Source of the DNA: Coriobacteriia bacterium
Lineage (GTDB): Bacteria; Actinomycetota; Coriobacteriia; Anaerosomatales; Anaerosomataceae
Direction of reading: 5' to 3'
Length of the DNA stretch: 33,906 nt
Assembly (NCBI GenBank): GCA_030651765.1
Contig: JAUSBY010000013.1
Coordinates: 1-33,906 of the forward strand
Positions within the stretch are counted from its first letter, which is position 1, and each line of letters opens with the position of its first letter. Position numbers and translations under genes: made by a program. Positions 1-31,040 of the stretch are shown here, one piece after another. Under the pieces are notes generated by a model, which saw only the letters and a program-made list of their open reading frames with translations, did no database searches and was not told the origin of the DNA.

Positions 1-46
1 CCTTGTGCATCGAGACGATGTCCACCCATTCCTCCAGCCGAATCAA
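1..46 (-). CDS. istA: IS21-family transposase IstA, N-terminal 15 codons (partial)
   Basis: A TTG start at 46-44 opens a frame reading MIRLEEWVDIVSMHK and continuing off the left edge. An ideal AGGAGG (minus strand, 57-52) sits 5 bases upstream. The sequence resembles the start of IstA proteins, where a short segment of this kind precedes the helix-turn-helix that recognises the element ends. IstA is the DDE transposase that works with the AAA+ helper IstB. Only 15 residues are visible, so the call rests on the N-terminal resemblance, the ribosome-binding site and the IS21-like terminal repeats next to it. Confidence 0.6.
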   Translation of the reverse strand, partial: MIRLEEWVDIVSMHK

Positions 47-140
47 CTGACCCTCCTCGCCACGTCGCCGTGACAAGGAGCCTACAGGGTGGTCAGTTTT
101 CAATCGTCACAGGGTGGTCATTATTGCGTCGTCAGCGACA
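1..140 (-). mobile_element. End of an IS21-family insertion sequence (istA-proximal end)
   Basis: The element runs off the left edge of the window. Read on the minus strand, the terminus starts TGTCGCTGACGACGC at position 140, matching the 5'-TG tip typical of IS21 ends. Two exact copies of ACAGGGTGGTCA lie at 84-95 and 109-120, 25 bp apart, with similar sequence between and beyond them. Such repeated motifs inside the terminus are characteristic of IS21-family ends. The istA start codon follows inside. The outer boundary at 140 is inferred from where nitrite-reductase coding sequence resumes on the plus strand. The other end and istB are outside the window, so the target duplication cannot be checked. 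Confidence 0.72.
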
Positions 141-933
141 CGTGGACGTCGACCTCCCCTGGGAAGGTGGCCAGTGGGGTGCTCTCAGCGTCGAAACCAT
201 CATCAACAACCTGGAGACGAACCCCTCGCGGCTCGAGTGGACGCAGGAAGTCACCGGCTTGAAGATAGCTTTCATCCGTCACCCGGACGTGGAGTTCTTC
301 ACCGCAGGCTCGCCTCACATGAACGTGGGAATGGCATGCAACGACTGCCACATGCCCGATGTGAAGATTCGCAACAGGACCTTCAGCAGCCATAACCTGA
401 TGAGCCCGCTCAAGGCCGACATGGCGGCGTGCAAGCGCTGCCACTACGACACGACCGAAGAGCTGCGCACCACGGTACTCGAGATCCAGAATGCCAATGC
501 GAGTGCACTCATCACCGCCGGCTACAAGACCGCTACCGCTGCCAAGCTCATCGAGCTGGCAAAGGCCTCCGTGGAGACCAGCGCGGCCGACGTTCAACCT
601 GCTTACGAGCAGGCTGTGGGACACTATCGGGGCGCGCTGTACCGGGTGATCTTCATGGGAGCCGAGAACTCCATGGGCTTCCATAATCCCGCTGAGGGTC
701 AGCGGATCCTGGCCGACGCGGCCGCGGAGGCCGACGCCACCGCGGCCATCCTGCGCGACCTCCTCACCAGCAGAGGCGTGGAGGTGCCCGCCGAAGTACC
801 GCTGCAGCTGCGCACGTACCTCGACAACCGCGGAGCGCACCAGAAGGGTTTCGCCGCGGCGCAGTACATCCCCGACCCCGCTGGCATAGCGCAAACGACG
901 TGGCCGGTCAGCCTGGCGGCTCTCCTCCAGTAG
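141..933 (+). pseudogene. nrfA: Ammonia-forming cytochrome c nitrite reductase NrfA, C-terminal part, interrupted by IS21
   Basis: NrfA is a penta-haem enzyme outside the membrane that reduces nitrite to ammonium with six electrons, normally fed by NrfH. The frame here begins inside the protein (DVDLPWEGG..., matching the PWD.G segment that follows the third haem in the family) and runs about 264 residues to a stop at 931-933. It keeps two CxxCH haem sites, CNDCHMP (337-351) and CKRCH (430-444), and the conserved SSHNLMSP histidine (391-393). The family's QHP active-site motif appears as RHP. The catalytic lysine- or histidine-ligated first haem and haems 2-3 are absent; they should lie beyond the IS element. 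An ATG at 108 and a possible start at 70 fall within the IS end and are not native starts. The remaining sequence has no internal stop, so the insertion looks recent. Confidence 0.8.
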
Positions 934-968
934 CGGCTACCCGCGCGACATGCTCTCCCCGGAACGCA

Positions 969-998
969 CGAAGGGCGACCCGTGTGGGTCGCCCTTCG
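969..998. terminator. Bidirectional hairpin terminator between nrfA and cspA
   Basis: A perfect 13-bp stem, CGAAGGGCGACCC / GGGTCGCCCTTCG, with a GTGT loop lies between the convergent nrfA and cspA genes. No long T-tract follows on either strand. The position between two gene ends makes a shared terminator the best reading. Confidence 0.7.
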
Positions 999-1024
999 CT
1001 GCTAACCTTGAAGCGCTCTGGAAA

Positions 1025-1228
1025 CTAGAGAGCGCGAACGTTGGTCGCCTGCTGCTTGCCGTTGTTGCCGGTTGCCTCGTCGAACGAGACGCGCTGGCCC
1101 TCGTCGAGGGTCTTGAAGCCCTCGGTCTGGATCTCAGAGAAGTGGACGAACAGATCGTCGCCGCCCTCACGTGAGATGAAGCCATAGCCCTTGTCCGCGT
1201 TGAACCACTTGACGGTACCTTCAGCCAT
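1025..1228 (-). CDS. cspA: Cold-shock protein, CspA family
   Basis: This 67-residue protein is a single cold-shock domain, an OB fold that binds single-stranded RNA or DNA and acts as an RNA chaperone. It begins [18 protein letters not shown] and carries both nucleic-acid-binding motifs, RNP1-like KGYGFI and RNP2-like DLFVHFSEI, ending in the usual QATNVRAL. The length equals that of standard bacterial Csp proteins. The ATG at 1228 was chosen because MAEGTVKWF is the conserved N-terminus; an upstream in-frame extension to 1324 has no family counterpart. It is preceded by a structured leader with a terminator-like hairpin (1269-1306) and a good -10 box at 1344-1339. Expression is therefore probably controlled after initiation, as for other cspA genes. 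Confidence 0.95.
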
Positions 1229-1883: not shown

Positions 1884-2723
1884 TCAGTACACCTCTGGCA
1901 CGTAGGTCTGTGAGTCGATCGGCGGACGGATGTAGCCTTCGGCCGACTGCTTGCGCGGTGGAAGCTTGAACGGCTCGTCCAGCACGTCCTCGTACGGGAT
2001 CAGCGTGAGCAGATGGCTGATGCAGTTGAGCCGGGCCCGCTTCTTGACGTCGCCCTCCACCACCCACCAGGGCGACTCCTTGGTGTCGGTGTACTTGAAC
2101 ATCTCGTCTTTCGCCCGTGAGAACTCCTCCCAGCGGTCGCGGCCGTCGAGATCGATCGTCGAGAACTTCCAGCTCTTCATCGGATCGTCGATACGGTCCT
2201 GGAAGCGGCGGTCCTGCTCCTCGTCCGAGATGGACAGCCAGTACTTGATCAGGATGATGCCGCTGCGCTTGAGCATGCGCTCGAACTCGGGACAGTCCCG
2301 GAAGAACTCCTGTACCTGCTCCGCGGCAGCCCAGCCCATGACACGCTCGACCACAGCGCGGTTGTACCAGGAGCGGTCGAAGAGCACGATCTCACCGGCG
2401 GCGGGAAGCTGCGCCGCATAGCGCTGGAAGTACCACTGCGTCGCCTCGCGCTCCGTGGGGACCGGCAACGCGACCACGCGGCAGATACGGGGGTTGAGCG
2501 CCTCGGTGATGCGCTTGATGACGCCGCCCTTGCCGGCGGCATCGCGCCCCTCGAACACCACCACCACGCGAAGGCCCTCCTGCTTGACCCACTCCTGCAG
2601 CTTCACCAGCTCGAGCTGCAGTCGGCTCAGCTCAGTCTCATACGTCTTGCGATCGAGCTTGACCGGACCACCCGAGGTCTCGTCGCCCGCTGCTGCCTTC
2701 TTGCCCGAGCCGTTCTTGCTCAT
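1884..2723 (-). CDS. ppk2: Polyphosphate kinase 2 (class I PPK2)
   Basis: PPK2 transfers phosphate between polyphosphate and nucleoside diphosphates, usually running toward GTP or ATP synthesis. The 279-residue length fits single-domain class I enzymes. A Walker A-like loop FEGRDAAGKGG is at residues 57-67 and the Walker B/lid sequence FDRSWYNR at 115-122. KSWKFS and the conserved SPWWVVEGDVKKRARLN segment follow. The N-terminal 20 residues are low-complexity and polar. The gene starts 3 bases after the ppk1 stop, so the two are almost certainly co-transcribed. Together they could make polyphosphate from ATP (PPK1) and spend it on NDP phosphorylation (PPK2). Confidence 0.95.
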   Translation of the reverse strand: MSKNGSGKKAAAGDETSGGPVKLDRKTYETELSRLQLELVKLQEWVKQEGLRVVVVFEGRDAAGKGGVIKRITEALNPRICRVVALPVPTEREATQWYFQRYAAQLPAAGEIVLFDRSWYNRAVVERVMGWAAAEQVQEFFRDCPEFERMLKRSGIILIKYWLSISDEEQDRRFQDRIDDPMKSWKFSTIDLDGRDRWEEFSRAKDEMFKYTDTKESPWWVVEGDVKKRARLNCISHLLTLIPYEDVLDEPFKLPPRKQSAEGYIRPPIDSQTYVPEVY

Positions 2724-2726
2724 CGT

Positions 2727-4877
2727 CTACCCCTTGCTTCGGGAGCCCTTCTTGCGCACGACCGTCCCCGTCTTGGCCTTCTTGCGTCTCTTCGGCTCCA
2801 CTGCCCGACGAATGGCCAGAAGCGCCGCCTGCGAGTCGACGGCATCCTCACCCTTGGCAGGCACGAGGCGTTCGTAGGTGCCATCGGGCAACATGCGTCG
2901 CGTGCGCACGTTGTCGGCCAGATACGTGCCGAGTATCTCGTCGCGCAGACGGGCGACGAGACCCGGATCCTCGACCGGCGCGAGCACCTCGACCCGTCGG
3001 TCCAGGTTCCGCGGCATGAGGTCGGCGCTGCCGATGTAGACGCACGGCTCGCCGCCGTTTGCGAAGTAGAACACGCGGCTGTGCTCGAGGAACCGGCCGA
3101 CGACGCTTCTGACCGTGATGTTCTCGCTCACGCCCGGCACTCCGGGCCGCAGGCAACAGATGCCACGCACGACCAGATCGATCTTCACACCCGCGTTCGA
3201 GGCCTCGTACAGGAGCGTGATGAGCTGCCGGTCCACAAGCGAGTTCATCTTGAAGATGATGTGCGCCGCGACCCCGTCGGCGGCGTGCTGCATCTCCCGG
3301 CGGATGAGTTCGGCCAGGCGGTGACGCATCTCCACCGGCGCCACAAGGAACCTGCGGTGGCTGCTCTTGGCCGCATAGCCGGTGATCAGGTTGAACAGTT
3401 CCGAGGCGTCGGCGCCGACCTTGGCGTTGCTCGTGAGCAGCCCGAGATCGGTGTAGAGCGTCGCAGTGACCGGATTGTAGTTGCCCGTGCCGATATGCAC
3501 GTACCGCCTGATCTTCGACCCCTCGCGTCGCACGACAAGCGCGACCTTGCTGTGCGTCTTCAGGCCGACGAGTCCGTAGACCACGTGCACACCTGCACGT
3601 TCGAGGGCTCGAGCCCACTCGATGTTGCTCTCCTCGTCAAAACGCGCCTTGAGCTCCAGCAGGCAGGCAACCTCCTTGCCCGCCAGCGCGGCGTCCATGA
3701 GCGCTTCGACGATCGGAGAGTCCCTGCCCACGCGATAGAGAGTCATCTTGATCGCAAGCACGTCGGGGTCGTGCGCGGCCTGACGTATGAACGAGATCAC
3801 CGGCTGGAACGACTCGAACGGATGATGCAGCAAGATGTCCCGCTCGCGGATCGCCGTGAAGATGTCGATGTCGTCGCCATCGCCGAGGTCCACGGTGAGC
3901 TCCGGCACGAACGTGGGGTACTTCAGGTCGGGACGATCGAGACCCGCCAGCCCGAACAGCTCGCTCATCCCGAGCGGCGGGTCGATCGTGACGACATCTG
4001 CGGCATCCATCTTCAGGTTCTCCACGAGGATGTCGCGAATGAGCGAGGGCATGGTGGGGTCCACCGTCATGCGGACCACCGAGCCAAACCGCCGCTGACG
4101 TACACCCGCCTCGATCGTCTCGAGCAGGTCGTCGGCCTCGAGCTCCTGGATCACCATCTCGGCGTCGCGCGTGATGCGGAACGGATGAGCCTCGGTCACC
4201 TCGAAACCCGGGAAGAGCGTGTCGATATGCGCAACCACAAGTTGCTCGAGCCACACGAACGCACGCGTGCGCGTGCCGCGGGTCGCCTGGGTCACGATGG
4301 GCACGAACCTCGGAAGGGCCTTCGGGATCTTGACGCGCGCGAACCGCTCCTGCCCGTCCGGGCCCTTGACCACGACCGCAAGGTTCATGCTCAGGTTCGA
4401 GATGTGCGGGAACGGTCGACCGGGGTCGAACGCAAGCGGCGTAAGAACCGGGAACACGTCGATCGCGAAGTACTCGTAGGCGGCGGCGCGCTGGTCCTCG
4501 TCAAGATTGGCATAGTCGAGCAGGTGGACGCCGACGTCAGCGAGATCGGCGCGGAGGGCGCCGAACGCCTCCCGTGCACGGTGCAGCATGTCCGGCACGC
4601 GCTCGCGCACCGCGGCGAGCTGCTCGGCGGCGGTCAGCCCGTCGTCAGAGACCCCGGTCACGCCCGCGGCTATCTGCTGACGCAGACCGGCCACGCGGAC
4701 CATGTAGAACTCGGAGATGTTCGAACTGAAGATCGCGAGGTACTTGGCGCGCTCGAGGAGCGGGTTTCGGGTGTCCAGGGCTTCCTCGAGGACGCGCTCC
4801 TGGAACGCGAGCAGTGCGAGTTCGCGATTGACGAACAGCGTCGGTTCGTCGAGATCCAGCTCGCGCTTCGTCGTCAT
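2727..4877 (-). CDS. ppk1: Polyphosphate kinase PPK1
   Basis: PPK1 polymerises the gamma-phosphate of ATP into inorganic polyphosphate. The 716-residue protein has the full N-terminal, head and two phospholipase-D-like catalytic domains. The autophosphorylated histidine is H461 in YVHIGTGNYN, and the second catalytic segment is GSADLMPRNLDRRVEV. The ATG at 4877 gives the canonical start ...EPTLFVNRELALLAFQERVLEEA, and GGGGGAG lies just upstream. An extension of 12 codons to 4913 is unsupported. The C-terminus is a lysine/arginine-rich tail (RRKKAKTG..KKGSRSKG), which may help bind the polyanionic product. It is the first gene of the ppk1-ppk2 pair. Confidence 0.95.
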   Translation of the reverse strand: MTTKRELDLDEPTLFVNRELALLAFQERVLEEALDTRNPLLERAKYLAIFSSNISEFYMVRVAGLRQQIAAGVTGVSDDGLTAAEQLAAVRERVPDMLHRAREAFGALRADLADVGVHLLDYANLDEDQRAAAYEYFAIDVFPVLTPLAFDPGRPFPHISNLSMNLAVVVKGPDGQERFARVKIPKALPRFVPIVTQATRGTRTRAFVWLEQLVVAHIDTLFPGFEVTEAHPFRITRDAEMVIQELEADDLLETIEAGVRQRRFGSVVRMTVDPTMPSLIRDILVENLKMDAADVVTIDPPLGMSELFGLAGLDRPDLKYPTFVPELTVDLGDGDDIDIFTAIRERDILLHHPFESFQPVISFIRQAAHDPDVLAIKMTLYRVGRDSPIVEALMDAALAGKEVACLLELKARFDEESNIEWARALERAGVHVVYGLVGLKTHSKVALVVRREGSKIRRYVHIGTGNYNPVTATLYTDLGLLTSNAKVGADASELFNLITGYAAKSSHRRFLVAPVEMRHRLAELIRREMQHAADGVAAHIIFKMNSLVDRQLITLLYEASNAGVKIDLVVRGICCLRPGVPGVSENITVRSVVGRFLEHSRVFYFANGGEPCVYIGSADLMPRNLDRRVEVLAPVEDPGLVARLRDEILGTYLADNVRTRRMLPDGTYERLVPAKGEDAVDSQAALLAIRRAVEPKRRKKAKTGTVVRKKGSRSKG

Positions 4878-5003
4878 CGCTCCCCCATGTTTGTAGTCGA
4901 ATGGCCAGCGCACGCTTGCTGTGGACAGTGTAGCGCGACACGACGTTCATACCCGACGGGAAGCGTGACGCCGGCCGAGCACGTCCCCACGAAGCGGCGG
5001 CGG

Positions 5004-20702: not shown

Positions 20703-21746
20703 CTACTCGTCCTGGAAGAGGCCGCCCGCTCGCCAGTCGTAGGCTCCGGTGACCGTCCTGTCTAAGCCGCCGCTCACGGAGCTGTAGCTGCCCACGGCGG
20801 CGTTATTGCTGCCGCCGTTCACCGAGCTATAGCTGCCCGAGGCAGCGTTGAGGCGGCCGCCACTCACCGAGCCATAGCTGCCAGAAGCGGCGTTATTGCT
20901 GCCGCCGCTTACTGAGCTACGTTCACCCAAGGCGATGTTGCTGAACCCGCCGTTCACCGAGCTATACAATCCCGAGGCAGTGTTGGAAAAGCCGCCGTTC
21001 ACCGAGCTATACGAACCCGAGGCGGTGTTGTTGTAGCCCCCGCTCACCGAGCTATGGCTGCCCGAGACGGTGTTACGCGAGCCTGCGACGAGCCCGCCCC
21101 AGCTCGTCCAATTGTGCCCCGGTCCGACCACGAGAGTATGCGAGCCGGTGCGCTCGGTCTCGGCTGACGCGCGCATCTCGTTGTAGCCGAGAATGAGGTT
21201 GCCGCGTCCGTTGGCGTTGAAGGTCTGGCCGGCGCCAGAACGCACGTGCACGTTGGCGCCGGTGAAGATGACGTGGGGTCCTGCAAGCCCTCCGACCGTA
21301 CCAGGCTCGACCGTGACGTAGGGCGCGAGGTCGAGCACACCGGCCATCCCCGTCTCTAGAAACGCAGCGTCTGCCCGCTTGGCTACGAGGGCTGCGGTCT
21401 CGTAGCGGTCCTTACCGCCGATGCGCTCGATGTCGGTGACGCCGAGCGTGCTCAAGGCGCTGACGACCGCCGGGCCGACGGCGCCCTCGCCACCTAAGAT
21501 GATCACCTTGGGCTTCACGCGGCGCGAGATCTCTGCGGCCGTCGCAGATGGGATACTGTCCTTCCCGGTCAGCAGGATGGGCGCCGCGTAGGCCTGGGAC
21601 AGGATCCCTCCCGCAAGCGCGTCGGGGAAGCTGGTACCCGTTGCCAGTATGACCATATTCGTGGGCCCTGCGGCCTGTGCCGCATCTGGTGCGACCAGGA
21701 AGACCATCGCGAGCGCGAGTGCGGCGATGACGAGTGTCGTTCTCAT
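20703..21746 (-). CDS. Secreted CWB2 cell-wall protein with beta-roll (Hep/Hag-like) repeats
   Basis: The 347-residue precursor has a signal peptide (cleavage near AQA-A, residue 26). One CWB2 cell-wall-binding unit follows at about 30-127 (ATGTSFPDALAGGILS...APILLTGKD...VIILGGEGAVGP...RYETA). A spacer comes next, then eight tandem 15-residue repeats at 217-336 with consensus SSVSGGxNNxASGSY. CWB2 normally occurs as three units and binds cell-wall polymers; here there is one. The 15-residue repeats resemble the left-handed beta-roll motifs of trimeric autotransporter heads (YadA, Hep/Hag), unusual in a Gram-positive protein. The last 11 residues (DWRAGGLFQDE) carry no sorting signal. The ATG at 21746 is preferred because it gives the signal peptide. 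Confidence 0.82.
   Translation of the reverse strand: MRTTLVIAALALAMVFLVAPDAAQAAGPTNMVILATGTSFPDALAGGILSQAYAAPILLTGKDSIPSATAAEISRRVKPKVIILGGEGAVGPAVVSALSTLGVTDIERIGGKDRYETAALVAKRADAAFLETGMAGVLDLAPYVTVEPGTVGGLAGPHVIFTGANVHVRSGAGQTFNANGRGNLILGYNEMRASAETERTGSHTLVVGPGHNWTSWGGLVAGSRNTVSGSHSSVSGGYNNTASGSYSSVNGGFSNTASGLYSSVNGGFSNIALGERSSVSGGSNNAASGSYGSVSGGRLNAASGSYSSVNGGSNNAAVGSYSSVSGGLDRTVTGAYDWRAGGLFQDE
20739..21098 (-). repeat. Eight tandem 45-bp repeats encoding the beta-roll
   Basis: Eight consecutive 45-bp units encode 15 residues each. Positions V-S/N-G-G and A-S-G-S-Y are the most conserved, and the first unit (21054-21098) and last unit (20739-20783) are most diverged. Nucleotide similarity between inner units, for example those at 20964-21053, is high, so copy number could vary between strains. 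Confidence 0.85.
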
Positions 21747-21908
21747 GACGTTTCCCCCTCGGAGAGAGTGGCGATGTCCCGAGTATACCCGCCAAGGTGG
21801 GCCATCGAAGGGAGGGGCATGCACACCGGTGGAGCTCGTTCCCGTGCTTCATGCATACCGACGACTGCCGGGAACGCAACAGCCCCGCAACGCAGGGTGC
21901 CAACGAAC

Positions 21909-25766: not shown

Positions 25767-28700
25767 CTACGGTGCCGGTGGCACGAAGCCGTCGCTGAGC
25801 GTCTGCATGAACGCCACGATCGCGTCCTCCTGCATATCGCTGAGCCCGAGGTTACCCATGTTCACGGTGTCAAGGTTGCTCGCCACCTCCGGCTCGGGCC
25901 AGCCCGCGTCGGGCACGTCCCTCGTGTTGTAGAAGTGGACGACCTCCTTCAGCGTCTTGAAGTACCCGTTATGCCCGTACGGTGCCGTGAGTGCGACGTT
26001 GCGCAGACTCGGCGTCTTGAACAGGCCGTCGAGCTCCGGATTGGCCGCCACTCCTCCCGGCATCACCGCTGCAAGTCCGTGATCGATCCAGGCCGCGCCG
26101 TCAGGATTGAGGTCCGGCGGCAGGCTATAGAACGGATTGTCAGGGTTCTTCGGGGTGCCGATGTTCGAGTAGCGATAGTCGCTGAACAGGATGGTCTGGT
26201 CGGGCAGGTACGCCATCCCATCGCCCATCCCGGTCATGCCGCCCATCGGCGTCGTATGGCAGACCCAGCACTTGGCCACGCCGTTGAAGAGCATCATGCC
26301 CTGCATCTCCTGCATGGTGAACACACCCATGCGCTCAGGTCCGACGAACTTCATAGCGTAGTCGTGCTTCGAACTGAACGGATTGACCTCGGCGGTGCGC
26401 TCGAACGCGGCGATGACCGAGGCGATCCGATCGAACGCGGCAGCAGCATCACCCGTGTCCAGACTGTCGGGGCCGAACGCGGCCAGGAAGTCGGGCGCGT
26501 ACGCCGAGGCGGCAACCGCATCTACAACGGCTACGTCGTCGGCCATGTGCATCTCGAGAGGATTGAGGAACGGGCCCTTCGCCTGCTCCTCGAGCGTATC
26601 GACCCGGCCGTCCAGGAACTGACCACCGGTGAACTCACCGATAAGTTCGTCGAAGCCGAACGGCGGGATGAACGCCGCGTACGAGGCCATCGGCGCGTTG
26701 CGGTTGCCGAACACACCGGGCACCGCCCCTGGCGAGATCGCATCGCCGTCTGGATCGGCGAAGCCCGTTGCCGGGTCGTGACACGACGCGCACGACTGCC
26801 CGACGGGATCCGACAGGTTGGTGTCGAAGAAGATCTCCCTGCCGAGCGCGCGGAATGCATCGGCACCCACACCGTCGTTGAGCATCGAGACGACGTTGGA
26901 CGGCGCCGAATCGAACGTCTTGGTCGGGAACCCTATCGCTGCAGGGGTCGCCGGGTACTCGGTCGGATCGCCGATGACGTTCGTGGCGTAGACGCGGTAG
27001 AAGTACGTCACGCCCGGCACCGCCGTGTCATCTCCGTACGCGGTCTCGTTCTCACCCACGGAGAAGGTCACCGGCGCGCTCGTGAACTCGGAGTCCTCGG
27101 CGCGCTCGATCACAAACCCGGTCTCGTTGGCCGAGTTGTCCGTCCAGGTGAGGTTCATCACGCCCAGGTCGAGCGTTGCGGCCAGATCACTGGGTGGGCG
27201 CGGTGACACGCCGAACGCGATCGGGCGCATCATGTCCATCTCCTCGTGACTGAGGATGTGGCAGTGCCACATGTACTCCCAGCCGAAGTTGATGACCCTG
27301 TTGATGACCGGGAAGACCGACTCGCCCAGCGGGTCGAAGATCTCGCCGGCTTCCCACAGGATGGCGCCCTCCGGCATCGTCGGGTCGAGCGGCCGAACGC
27401 TGTTGGGCAGATCGAACGGCACCTGCGGCACAACCGGACGCAGCGCGACGATCGTGTCCTCGAGCGGGTTGACCTTCACCGTGTCCTTCCAGCCCAACTC
27501 GTTGGGCAGTGGCAACATCACTCTGTTGTCCCACGCCACACGATTGAGCAGCTGCACCTCGAACAGATGGAAGTGCATCGGGTGGGTGTCGACGCCGTTT
27601 TGGGTGATCTTCCAGATCTGCGTCCCGTCTCCCAGCTCACCGATCTTGGTACCCTCCACCGATTCACCGACGAGCTCCGTCGGCGGCGCCCCATAGTCGT
27701 ACAGGTTGAAGTTCTGCAGACCCGCGACCGTGTTAGGGACCTCGAGGCCGAGCTTGCCGGCCATGCGACCGTACGTCTTGTCGAAGGTCTCTCCCATCTC
27801 GTCCTGGATAGCCTTGGGCTCCAGCGGCAGGGTCACCACTGAGCCGTCGAGGGTCTTGAAGGTGAGTTCGTTGTCGAAGATCCGCACGATGCCCCAGTAC
27901 GGCCATATAGCCGAGAACTGCTGATTATACGCCGCGCTGTACGGGGCCTGCGTGACGATGATGTCTTCCTGCGACGAGGCGAACACGCCTTCCTGCGTGT
28001 CGGTTGACACGAACGCAGCTTCGAGGGCGGCGAGATCGAAGGCCGGCGCGGCAGGCGCATCGGCTACCTTGATCTGCATGACGGTGCGCACGTTGGGCCC
28101 GTAGCCGGGTCGCGTGCTCTCGTGACCGCCTTCCTCGGTGAAGTCTTCGTTGTCGGTGTAGTAGTCGTAGCGCGGGTCGGGAGCCGGCCACGGCGCGGGT
28201 GCGTCGTTGTAGACGATCAGCGTCTTGCCCGCCCATTTCGAGAAGTCGACGATGACATCCGCCCGCTCGGCGGGACCGAGCATCAGCGTCCCGTTGTTGA
28301 CGTTGCCCGCGTTGAATGTGGTCACATCGACGTTCCAGTCGATCGGCTGATTGGCCAGCACGACCGGCGCGGGAAGGAATCCTCCCTCGGTGGCGATCTG
28401 GATCATCTCGGGACCTGCGGTCGCGGGATCCGGGACGCCACCATCTCGGCCGTCTACCGGCCAGCCCTCCGGATACCGTGCATTCTTGTCGGCAGGCACC
28501 ATCTTGACTTCGGTGTCGTTCGGGGTGGCCTCAAGCACCAACGCGAACACGGCATCGCTTACCGCCACGTTTCCGCCAAACACATAGACCCGGAGGATGT
28601 CGAGCTTGTACGTTGCCAGGAAGTCGGCCGTCTCGGTTGGTAGGGAACCGGGCCACGTGAGAAGCATCGGGCCGCTCAGATGGCCGAGTGAGACACCACC

Positions 28701-31040
28701 GGACAGCGCGTCGATGGTGCTCGCGGCGATGCCGACATCGTCGAAGCGCAGCCAGCCCTCGGCGAGAGCCCGCTCGGCGAACGCGACTGCGGTCCCGAAG
28801 CGGTTCACACCCCAGATGCGATCGCTGGCGGCCACGCCGAGCTCCGTCGCCACCGAGTCACTGACCGCCGCAGGCCCACCGACGATGTAGCGATCGGTGA
28901 GACCGAGTGACGTGAGTGCCGTGAGTGTCGGCGCTGGGACCGAGGTGTTGCGCACCAACAGTATCGGATAGTGGGTCTGCACTGAGGCCGGTCCTGCGAT
29001 CAGGCTGTCGTAGAAGTTGGCGGGCGTGGAGCCGTTGACGATGAAGGCGCCCGTGGGGAACTCGGTGCCCAGGACGGACTTCATCCGGGTGGCCACCGCC
29101 GCCGCGGTCTCGTAGCGATCGGCGCCGGCAACGCGATCGACGCTTGCCACGTTTGGCAGGGCGTTGATCGCCGAGGCCACCGCAGGTGTGACGGCTACGG
29201 GACCACCGACGATGTGCACGACGACTCCGTCAGGCAACGCTTCGAGCGCGGCCTTTGTGACGGTGGGCAGGGCTCCGCGTCTGGTCAGCAGCAGCGGCGC
29301 ATTGTAGACGCCCGCAAGGCCCGCGCCGGAAAGCGCGTCCACCTGTGAGATATCCTCGCCGGAGGTGACCACGACGTGCGCAACGCCTTCCCAGCCGGGA
29401 AACGCCATCTCGGCGGACTCGGCAGCCGTGGCGTAGCGATCCGGACCAAAGACCCGTACGGCTCCGGGAGTAGGATCGCTCTCGTAGAGCTGCAGGTTCC
29501 AGAAGCGGTCGTTCCCGGAGTTGAGGACGCGGAAGCGGTACGACTTGGGATCGACCTCGAGCGTCGGATACGCCGTGCCGTTCACGACCGGCGTGTCAAA
29601 GAACGCCTCCATGCCCATCGAGGGATGCGGCACGCCGGGAATCATCGGCGGCTGGCCGGGAGTCTCCTCGGGGCTGACGTAGTAGGGGTTGGGAACCGGC
29701 CCGACCTCTACCGCTGTCGGCGGCCAGAACCACGGACCGTAGTGCCAGCGGCCCATCGCGTTGTAGCCGCTGATGTCATACGGGTTCTGCGCAGGCATGT
29801 AGACGTGCGGCAACCACAGATCACCCGTGTTAGGCGTACCGGGCGTCGTCCCCCAGTTCCAGGTGGGGTCGGTCTGGCCGATGGTGTCAGCGTCAACGAA
29901 CGTCTTATCCTGGAAGATCAGCGGAATCTGCTCCTCGGGGATGAGCCCCCGATCGAGGAGATCGAGTTCGGTCTCGTCTTGCAGAATGTAGCCGGCCGCC
30001 TCACCCGCGTACACGTTCAGGCGCGTGATGCCGAACGAGTGGTCGTGGTAGAACATCAGGCGCGCGCTCTGCTGGTTGGTGTAGTAGAAGGTCATCGAGC
30101 CGTCGCCCGGATCCGGCATGTCCGGTACGTCTACGACGCTGACACCCTCGGGGTACGGGGTGTTCTCGCCCGCAGGCGTGATCCACTGATGCGGCGTGCC
30201 GTCACTGATCCACGGGCTGCGTCCGCCATGCAGGTGCAGCGTGGCGCGGTTCTCCGTGTAGTTCACCGGCATGCCCTCGGGCACCATCTCCATCAGCGGC
30301 CCCATACCGGCGCCCATCACCGACGTGTCGACCGGGATGAACAGGTCGCCGTCCTCGCCGATGGGTAGTCTGTTCGTGAACTTGATGCGTACTGGACGGT
30401 CCTTCGAGGCGATGATGGTCGGCCCGAGGTAGTGGATCGGATCGGGCTCGATGGTGTTGTTGCCCTCGGCGTCGGTCCCGTTGTTGACCTGAACGTAGCC
30501 CCTGAGCGTGGTCGGCGGCAGATCCGAGTGCATCTGCTCCTCGTACTCATACAGATCGATCTCGTAGTAGTCCGAGCCGGGATAGGTGGTCGTGTCCGGC
30601 TTGGCCACCGACAGGTACTGGCCGAGGTTGTTCGCGTTGTCCGGGCCGAGACCAGGCAGCCCGTCGACGAACTTCCGGAGCGGCGGCGTGTAGGCCCAGT
30701 TAGGCGTCATGCCCGAGTAGTCGGGGACATCGCCGGGGCCCGGCGCTTCGAGCGCCATCGCCTCGAAGTACTCCTCGGGTCCCGCATCGGACGACAGCCC
30801 GAGGGTCTCGAGCTTCTTGGCCAGGTTGGACACCGCGATGTCCCGGTCCTCCTGGGTCACCACGCGATCCTGGCGCTCCCGCGCCTTCTCCACCTTCTGC
30901 GCGTATCGGTCCCGCGCGCTGACCACGCTGTCCTTCTCGCCGGAAACGGCGGCTGCGATACCGCCGCTCGATACAGCGAGCAGGGCAAGCGCGATCGTCA
31001 GCATCAGCAGACGATTCGGTCTTCCTCTCACGCCCCTCAC
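25767..31040 (-). CDS. Secreted multicopper oxidase with nested CWB2 anchor, FN3 and di-haem MauG/peroxidase domain
   Basis: The 1757-residue protein has a signal peptide (about 1-31) and a helical linker, then a multicopper oxidase. Copper motifs are HLHG (269-272), HDH (332-334), HPMHFH (1153-1158) and HCHILSHEEMDM (1259-1270), so type 1, 2 and 3 sites are all complete. Between NLQLYES (515-521) and TEVKMVPAD (843-851) of the second cupredoxin domain lie about 318 residues of three CWB2 repeats (RYATA 535, RYETA 642, RFGTA 747). An FN3 domain follows (about 1280-1375), then a MauG/cytochrome c peroxidase domain (about 1390-1750) with haems CASCH (1417-1421) and CWVCH (1591-1595). Oxidases of this large class include Geobacter OmpB-type proteins linked to metal-oxide reduction. 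A wall-held metal- or phenol-redox enzyme is inferred. The start is GTG 31040; GTG 31031, three codons in, has better ribosome-binding-site spacing. Confidence 0.92.
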   Translation of the reverse strand: MRGVRGRPNRLLMLTIALALLAVSSGGIAAAVSGEKDSVVSARDRYAQKVEKARERQDRVVTQEDRDIAVSNLAKKLETLGLSSDAGPEEYFEAMALEAPGPGDVPDYSGMTPNWAYTPPLRKFVDGLPGLGPDNANNLGQYLSVAKPDTTTYPGSDYYEIDLYEYEEQMHSDLPPTTLRGYVQVNNGTDAEGNNTIEPDPIHYLGPTIIASKDRPVRIKFTNRLPIGEDGDLFIPVDTSVMGAGMGPLMEMVPEGMPVNYTENRATLHLHGGRSPWISDGTPHQWITPAGENTPYPEGVSVVDVPDMPDPGDGSMTFYYTNQQSARLMFYHDHSFGITRLNVYAGEAAGYILQDETELDLLDRGLIPEEQIPLIFQDKTFVDADTIGQTDPTWNWGTTPGTPNTGDLWLPHVYMPAQNPYDISGYNAMGRWHYGPWFWPPTAVEVGPVPNPYYVSPEETPGQPPMIPGVPHPSMGMEAFFDTPVVNGTAYPTLEVDPKSYRFRVLNSGNDRFWNLQLYESDPTPGAVRVFGPDRYATAAESAEMAFPGWEGVAHVVVTSGEDISQVDALSGAGLAGVYNAPLLLTRRGALPTVTKAALEALPDGVVVHIVGGPVAVTPAVASAINALPNVASVDRVAGADRYETAAAVATRMKSVLGTEFPTGAFIVNGSTPANFYDSLIAGPASVQTHYPILLVRNTSVPAPTLTALTSLGLTDRYIVGGPAAVSDSVATELGVAASDRIWGVNRFGTAVAFAERALAEGWLRFDDVGIAASTIDALSGGVSLGHLSGPMLLTWPGSLPTETADFLATYKLDILRVYVFGGNVAVSDAVFALVLEATPNDTEVKMVPADKNARYPEGWPVDGRDGGVPDPATAGPEMIQIATEGGFLPAPVVLANQPIDWNVDVTTFNAGNVNNGTLMLGPAERADVIVDFSKWAGKTLIVYNDAPAPWPAPDPRYDYYTDNEDFTEEGGHESTRPGYGPNVRTVMQIKVADAPAAPAFDLAALEAAFVSTDTQEGVFASSQEDIIVTQAPYSAAYNQQFSAIWPYWGIVRIFDNELTFKTLDGSVVTLPLEPKAIQDEMGETFDKTYGRMAGKLGLEVPNTVAGLQNFNLYDYGAPPTELVGESVEGTKIGELGDGTQIWKITQNGVDTHPMHFHLFEVQLLNRVAWDNRVMLPLPNELGWKDTVKVNPLEDTIVALRPVVPQVPFDLPNSVRPLDPTMPEGAILWEAGEIFDPLGESVFPVINRVINFGWEYMWHCHILSHEEMDMMRPIAFGVSPRPPSDLAATLDLGVMNLTWTDNSANETGFVIERAEDSEFTSAPVTFSVGENETAYGDDTAVPGVTYFYRVYATNVIGDPTEYPATPAAIGFPTKTFDSAPSNVVSMLNDGVGADAFRALGREIFFDTNLSDPVGQSCASCHDPATGFADPDGDAISPGAVPGVFGNRNAPMASYAAFIPPFGFDELIGEFTGGQFLDGRVDTLEEQAKGPFLNPLEMHMADDVAVVDAVAASAYAPDFLAAFGPDSLDTGDAAAAFDRIASVIAAFERTAEVNPFSSKHDYAMKFVGPERMGVFTMQEMQGMMLFNGVAKCWVCHTTPMGGMTGMGDGMAYLPDQTILFSDYRYSNIGTPKNPDNPFYSLPPDLNPDGAAWIDHGLAAVMPGGVAANPELDGLFKTPSLRNVALTAPYGHNGYFKTLKEVVHFYNTRDVPDAGWPEPEVASNLDTVNMGNLGLSDMQEDAIVAFMQTLSDGFVPPAP
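28521..29474 (-). other. CWB2 triple-repeat insertion inside the multicopper oxidase coding sequence
   Basis: This segment encodes about residues 523-840. It contains three CWB2 units with the RYxTA signatures, VDALSGAGLAG/YDSLIAGPAS/IDALSGGVSLG blocks and the VGGPVAV/VGGPAAV/FGGNVAV strands. Removing it would rejoin the cupredoxin sequence LQLYESDP...NDTEVKMVPA without loss, so it is an in-frame domain insertion. Confidence 0.85.

Follow-up and report, generated by a model that had tools for sequence, protein, structure and literature searches.

One gene joins a copper oxidase, wall-binding repeats and a di-haem domain

The window, by which we mean the whole 33,906-nucleotide stretch analysed, contains on its reverse strand a gene (25767..31040, (-)) that encodes a protein of 1757 amino acids and runs as an open frame with no internal stop from a predicted GTG start at 31040; all features of this gene given below lie on the same strand. 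The protein begins with a putative Sec-type secretion signal (residues ~1–32; 30945..31040), predicted by eye from a basic N-terminus and a hydrophobic core. One orthologue (L029:171-4562, (-)) carries a twin-arginine-like signal (SRRKF); the signals of other orthologues look Sec-type. The signal is followed by a multicopper oxidase (MCO), whose first part comprises cupredoxin domain 1 and the first strands of domain 2 (residues ~116–524; 29469..30695), recognised by a phmmer match to CotA and by structural match. Next come three CWB2 repeats (525–840; 28521..29468; individual Pfam repeats at 29178–29456, 28851–29135 and 28548–28820), then the rest of domain 2 and domain 3 of the MCO (841–1285; 27186..28520), an FN3-like spacer (1286–1378; 26907..27185) and a MauG-class di-haem domain (1391–1757; 25770..26870).

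Three Pfam families exceeded their cut-offs, namely CW_binding_2, three times (E 1.9e-41), CCP_MauG (E 1.8e-31) and Cu-oxidase_2 (E 1.7e-9), the last of these covering the second MCO part. In phmmer comparison with the PDB, the protein matched CotA laccase (E 1e-32), Cwp6 (E 6e-22) and MauG (E 3e-59 to 7e-58). The fn3 match itself lies under the Pfam cut-off (E 0.05); three copies homologous to this stretch are present in the relative L034, where fn3 is over the cut-off. These searches uphold the domains that an earlier note had read from the DNA (MCO, three CWB2 repeats, FN3 and a two-haem MauG/CCP domain), with FN3 identified by way of L034.

We consider it hardly credible that an assembly error or a frameshift fused separate genes. 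The genomes are metagenome-type assemblies, and the Aminicenantes relative of the fusion does contain a frameshift, but here the frame is open over 5.3 kb. Moreover, a separately assembled genome from the same genus, the UBA2272 MAG G001, encodes the same domain order in 1756 amino acids at 91% identity, making a chimeric assembly very unlikely. Identity to G001 is 83–95% per domain (85–92% in blocks of the first MCO part), with every junction covered and with substitutions on either side of each, so the earlier description of one gene stands. The dN/dS ratio between the two genes is 0.125 overall (MCO parts, 0.08 and 0.09; CWB2 and FN3, 0.15 each; MauG, 0.14), and all modules are under purifying selection.

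Complete copper sites surround a wall-binding block in a surface loop

Every copper ligand could be located, as the claim of four copper-binding motifs had implied. H269 and H271 lie in HLHGG (269–273; 30222..30236), H332 and H334 in YHDH (331–334; 30039..30050), H1153, H1156 and H1158 in HPMHFH (1153–1158; 27567..27584), and H1259, C1260, H1261 and H1265 in HCHILSHEEMDM, which ends in the axial Met1270 (1259–1270; 27231..27266). Across an alignment of 31 homologues these ligands are invariant, except for the axial Met, which is nearly so. Membership of the MCOs is given by the ten His, the Cys and the axial ligand of the T1, T2 and T3 copper sites, all of which are present, and in relatives without a CWB2 insert the two MCO halves are contiguous.

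The CWB2 repeats had been placed inside the second cupredoxin domain at about residues 522–840, and our mapping puts the insert at ~525–840. In an AlphaFold2 model of residues 95–1290 (mean pLDDT 71, mostly 75–95 in the CWB2 block; three rows of the underlying alignment spanned the insert), the insert (model 430–747, residues 524–841) superposes on Cwp6 with Z 36.7 and 2.2 Å over 299 residues, and the MCO residues flanking it (model 26..1185) superpose on CotA with Z 21.4 and 3.2 Å over 446 of 490 residues, with which Foldseek agrees. The model thus shows the CWB2 triad branching off to the side of a CotA-like three-cupredoxin fold, which the two MCO halves build between them; the predicted structure answers the question, raised in the earlier note, of whether the block leaves the cupredoxin core intact. 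This arrangement agrees with what is known of the CWB2 triad, whose interlocking strands make up a closed triangular prism (PMC8881574), and the fold suggests that the termini of the triad are near enough to be joined to a hairpin loop. Three CWB2 repeats, here with a predicted Cwp6 fold, are likewise found in C. difficile SlpA, Cwp6 and Cwp8; in contrast to those triads, the one in the window lies inside a loop of a catalytic domain and not at a chain end. The protein is probably attached to the wall through this block, CWB2 being the generic anchor of the window's genome, in which we counted 95 CWB2 repeat matches. A second CWB2-anchored protein is encoded in the window at 20703-21824 (-), and its C-terminal part matches a grass antifreeze beta-roll family (PF21300, E 3e-7).

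In relatives without CWB2, the insertion site is a β-hairpin loop of mostly ~8–12 amino acids, in the context ..FWNLQLYEADP-xxxxDGR-TEVKMVPA... The same loop is occupied in eight homologues (L037, L038, L053, L084, L085, L096, L103 and L104, from Methanothrix, Nitrospirae, Chloroflexi and proteobacterial MAGs) by unrelated Gly-rich repeat inserts of ~75–159 amino acids with the pattern GGxGYTxxPxV..GGGGxGATAxA, the two tested of which matched no Pfam family. The CWB2 triad is a closed module, and the surface loop of cupredoxin domain 2 that receives it tolerates insertion. The C-terminal tails of these MCOs vary as well, and include CWB2, DUF5648 with Flg_new_2, FN3 repeats and MauG.

The haem domain resembles the MauG/BthA class

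The C-terminal domain scores 110.2 bits against CCP_MauG (PF03150; gathering score 25.6) and has two CXXCH motifs, CASCH (1417–1421; 26778..26792) and CWVCH (1591–1595; 26256..26270). Alignment with MauG shows that the positions of Tyr294, the axial ligand (Tyr1704, in HFYN; 25929..25931), Glu113 (in NPLEM), Gln103, Asn66, Thr275 and Pro277 are kept, so that the likeness to MauG and BthA takes in both haem motifs, the Tyr ligand, Glu113, Gln103 and the Ca-site residues. The domain differs from these enzymes in being fused to an oxidase and in having Leu1476 (26613..26615) at the position of the inter-haem Trp93, a replacement found in the window's genus, and no Trp at position 199. Elsewhere the Trp93 position is Trp in L034, L056, L073 and L098 and Tyr in L094. 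The score against the NCBIfam MauG equivalog TIGR03791 is far under the cut-off (80.9 against 443.85 bits).

MauG uses peroxide to oxidise residues of methylamine dehydrogenase, and its inter-haem Trp93 is required for TTQ synthesis. In BthA the Trp93 position is Ser, yet the enzyme still reaches a bis-Fe(IV) state and catalyses H2O2 turnover (PMC6405878). From the kept residues, this precedent and the missed equivalog cut-off, we assign the domain to the MauG/BthA class by the position of its putative Tyr axial ligand, as plausibly active but not as MauG proper. Since Leu stands in for Trp93 and position 199 is not a Trp, no obvious relay for hopping is apparent. The wall-held redox relay envisaged in the earlier note is therefore possible but not specifically supported, the loss of the inter-haem Trp being mild evidence against its simplest form, though BthA works without Trp93 (PMC6405878).

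The haem tail has a history of its own

A scan of species genomes supplied 79 loci, which we checked for MauG beside the MCO. A di-haem MauG gene lies directly downstream on the same strand in four of them (L034 at 120 bp, L073 at 64, L094 at 96 and L098 at 63; from Coriobacteriia, Nitrospiraceae, Anaerolineaceae and Chloroflexi), and no other ORF with at least two CXXCH motifs was found on the strand of the MCO in the 79 loci. Fusion of MauG to the MCO occurs in two lineages, that of G001 (L047) and an Aminicenantes UBA2190 MAG (L056). L056 shares the MCO-FN3-MauG order, with FN3 80% and MauG 85% identical to the window protein (the separate MauG of L034 is 70% identical); it differs in being without CWB2 and in its MCO, which is only ~60% identical and is broken by one frameshift (L056:5747-9748, (+); also L167), so that this fusion may or may not be functional. 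Along the protein, identity to L056 rises from 38–85% in MCO blocks to 75–98% from residue ~1281, the start of FN3, which is where identity to L016 falls, and this shift shows that the history of the FN3-MauG cassette is its own and crosses phyla.

The fusion is limited to the window's genus among 248 genomes of the Coriobacteriia class and was not found in any of 79 further genomes searched that are related to the Aminicenantes genome; a search for the L098-type MauG in 251 Chloroflexota genomes added a single genome (G939), where no MCO adjoins the gene. In the order, MauG is missing from the surroundings of most MCOs of the family, which implies that it is not required for the oxidase.

This distribution bears on what the haem domain does. 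Restriction of the fusion to one genus of the class, together with the lost inter-haem Trp, might suggest that the haem domain, or its fusion, has little function and came along by accident in this lineage with a recombined FN3-MauG cassette. We regard this as improbable, as the MauG part has a dN/dS of 0.14 with intact haem and axial-ligand motifs, and FN3-MauG has been joined to an MCO in another phylum too. Alternatively, the domain might be a BthA-like peroxidase that clears H2O2 from around the oxidase or the wall while the copper chemistry runs alongside, with no electrons passing between the two. The closest PDB matches include BthA structures, and BthA, also without the inter-haem Trp, turns over H2O2 (PMC6405878), but this explanation is quite unlikely in our judgement, since it leaves the fixed MCO neighbour in several phyla unexplained and little peroxide is expected for strict anaerobes.

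A third possibility is that the haem domain is an in-cis maturation enzyme, which, with peroxide as oxidant, would convert Trp or Tyr residues in the attached oxidase into an amino-acid-derived cofactor, the fusion guaranteeing the modification. The Trp93 needed for TTQ synthesis is Leu, the Trp199 position is not Trp, and the many family MCOs without a nearby MauG must work alone, which together make maturation unlikely; nevertheless, the MauG-type Tyr ligand, Glu113 and Gln103 positions are kept, the MCO is a recurrent neighbour of MauG in these loci, and MauG-class enzymes act on partners encoded nearby, as MauG does and as has been suggested for BthA on PhosA (PMC6405878).

The wall anchor moved between oxidase genes or was repeatedly lost

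In genomes of the order, the MCO mostly has a C-terminal CWB2 block or none, and the nested form was found only in G000, G001, G005 (the Anaerosomatales MAG Yes46-06) and G026. The C-terminally anchored MCOs of Anaerosomatales-like genomes (L018, L020 and L030) belong to the same family and have the same kind of anchor; they differ from the window protein in the position of that anchor, in their uninterrupted domain 2 and in being without MauG. In the CWB2 tree, the four nested blocks group together in a single clade (98/94), whose sister is the C-terminal CWB2 of L030. The same is not true of their MCO hosts: three changes are needed on the host tree, a single host clade is rejected (AU p 1.5e-10), and the window's MCO pairs with L016 and L034 (100/100), which have no CWB2. 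It follows that the block was either passed from one MCO gene to another as a unit or lost more than once.

The nested anchor occurs without MauG in G005 and G026, members of two related genera, and the MauG fusion occurs without the anchor in L056, indicating that nesting and fusion are separable traits, which could not be seen from the window alone. The combination described in the earlier note is present in the window's gene and in G001. The possibility that the anchor is nested because MauG fills the C-terminus is not supported, as the nested anchors of G005 and G026 occur without MauG. No MauG remnant was detected downstream of the FN3 of G005, and we do not read the end of that FN3 as a trace of a lost MauG, since the shared linker resembles an ordinary FN3 end and is followed by a stop and a G+C-rich inverted repeat. 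Taken together, trees and module comparison show, at the level of sequence, that recombination brought together three parts with separate histories: the nested anchor, the FN3-MauG tail and the MCO core.

Discussion

Reduction of Fe(III) oxides depends on OmpB, and OmpB and MofA are large MCOs with FN3 for which a role in surface Fe/Mn redox has been proposed (PMC5566968). The resemblance to such oxidases suggested in the earlier note is borne out by this published description: like OmpB (Geobacter GSU1394) and MofA (Leptothrix), compared here by description, the window protein is a large, putatively secreted MCO with FN3, weak in the window (PMC5566968). In addition, a Geobacter MAG homologue (L093) is 60% identical over the second MCO part, and a Methanoperedens homologue was also found. 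The window protein differs from OmpB and MofA in the anchor nested in domain 2 and in the MauG-class tail; MofC, the neighbour of MofA and OmpB, is described as having a cytochrome c domain and a periplasmic binding domain, and not as a MauG (PMC5566968).

The genome offers a setting for such an enzyme. It contains 107 matches to a CXXCH-pair pattern, against 1 in a reversed control, and five matches to a cytochrome c assembly family, and cultured Anaerosomatales encode 17–18 multihaem cytochromes, and one cultured member reduces ferrihydrite (PMC9686372). Separately, very dense, internally repeated CXXCH arrays at G000 C8:59658-61076, C9:28-1164 and C15:66067-67482 appear to encode large repeat multihaem cytochromes.

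We give about an even chance to the reading that the protein is a secreted, wall-held MCO of the OmpB/MofA type from a subsurface actinobacterium like those of Anaerosomatales (OPB41), and that the FN3 spacer tethers a MauG-class partner to this oxidase. It would presumably be loaded with copper and haem and would serve a surface redox role of the OmpB/MofA kind with the MauG-class domain as its dedicated partner. The nested CWB2 block would anchor the protein while leaving the copper sites unbroken and the C-terminus free; the type 1 copper might exchange electrons with extracellular reductants or metal (Fe/Mn) species at the wall surface, as proposed for OmpB and MofA; and the MauG-type domain, activated by peroxide, would be a redox partner of the same-chain oxidase at fixed stoichiometry, doing in cis the job of a separate adjoining gene in other lineages.

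The reading as a wall-held redox enzyme draws on the full copper and haem motifs, the CotA-like core with its Cwp6-like insert, purifying selection, the recurrent MCO-MauG pairing (four downstream, two fused), the generic nature of the CWB2 anchor, the multihaem-rich genome and order, and the need for OmpB in Fe(III) oxide reduction. Counted against it are Leu at Trp93 and the absent Trp199, which weaken simple electron hopping, the MauG-free MCOs of the family, and the lack of an adjoining electron-transfer gene, none being found next to the MCO within the window. A bolder extension, unlikely though conceivable, is that the domain-2 hairpin loop is a general plug-in site, filled by CWB2 here and by Gly-rich beta repeats elsewhere, and that the tail enzyme of the window's genus has the oxidase of its own chain as its target, which would give a self-maturing or peroxide-switched, wall-held copper-haem oxidase.

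The single chain unites two groups that have been investigated apart from each other, the OmpB/MofA-type oxidases, whose metal-cycling roles are unsettled, and the MauG-class enzymes, whose partners are mostly unknown, and the repeated MCO-MauG pairing across phyla offers a testable partner for these MauG-class proteins. Our search of the literature for an MCO with MauG or a CWB2 insertion, with most subscription papers outside its coverage, returned no description of this arrangement, nor of a wall-binding triad that lies within a catalytic fold and is shared between genes as a unit. The nested anchor also suggests a route to displaying enzymes on Gram-positive walls with both ends free.

Two further loci of the window may be recorded. 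At the contig edge, 70-933 (+) encodes the C-terminal part of a cytochrome c552 (NrfA-type nitrite reductase), and at 1884-4913 (-) the polyphosphate kinases PPK2 and PPK1 are encoded side by side.
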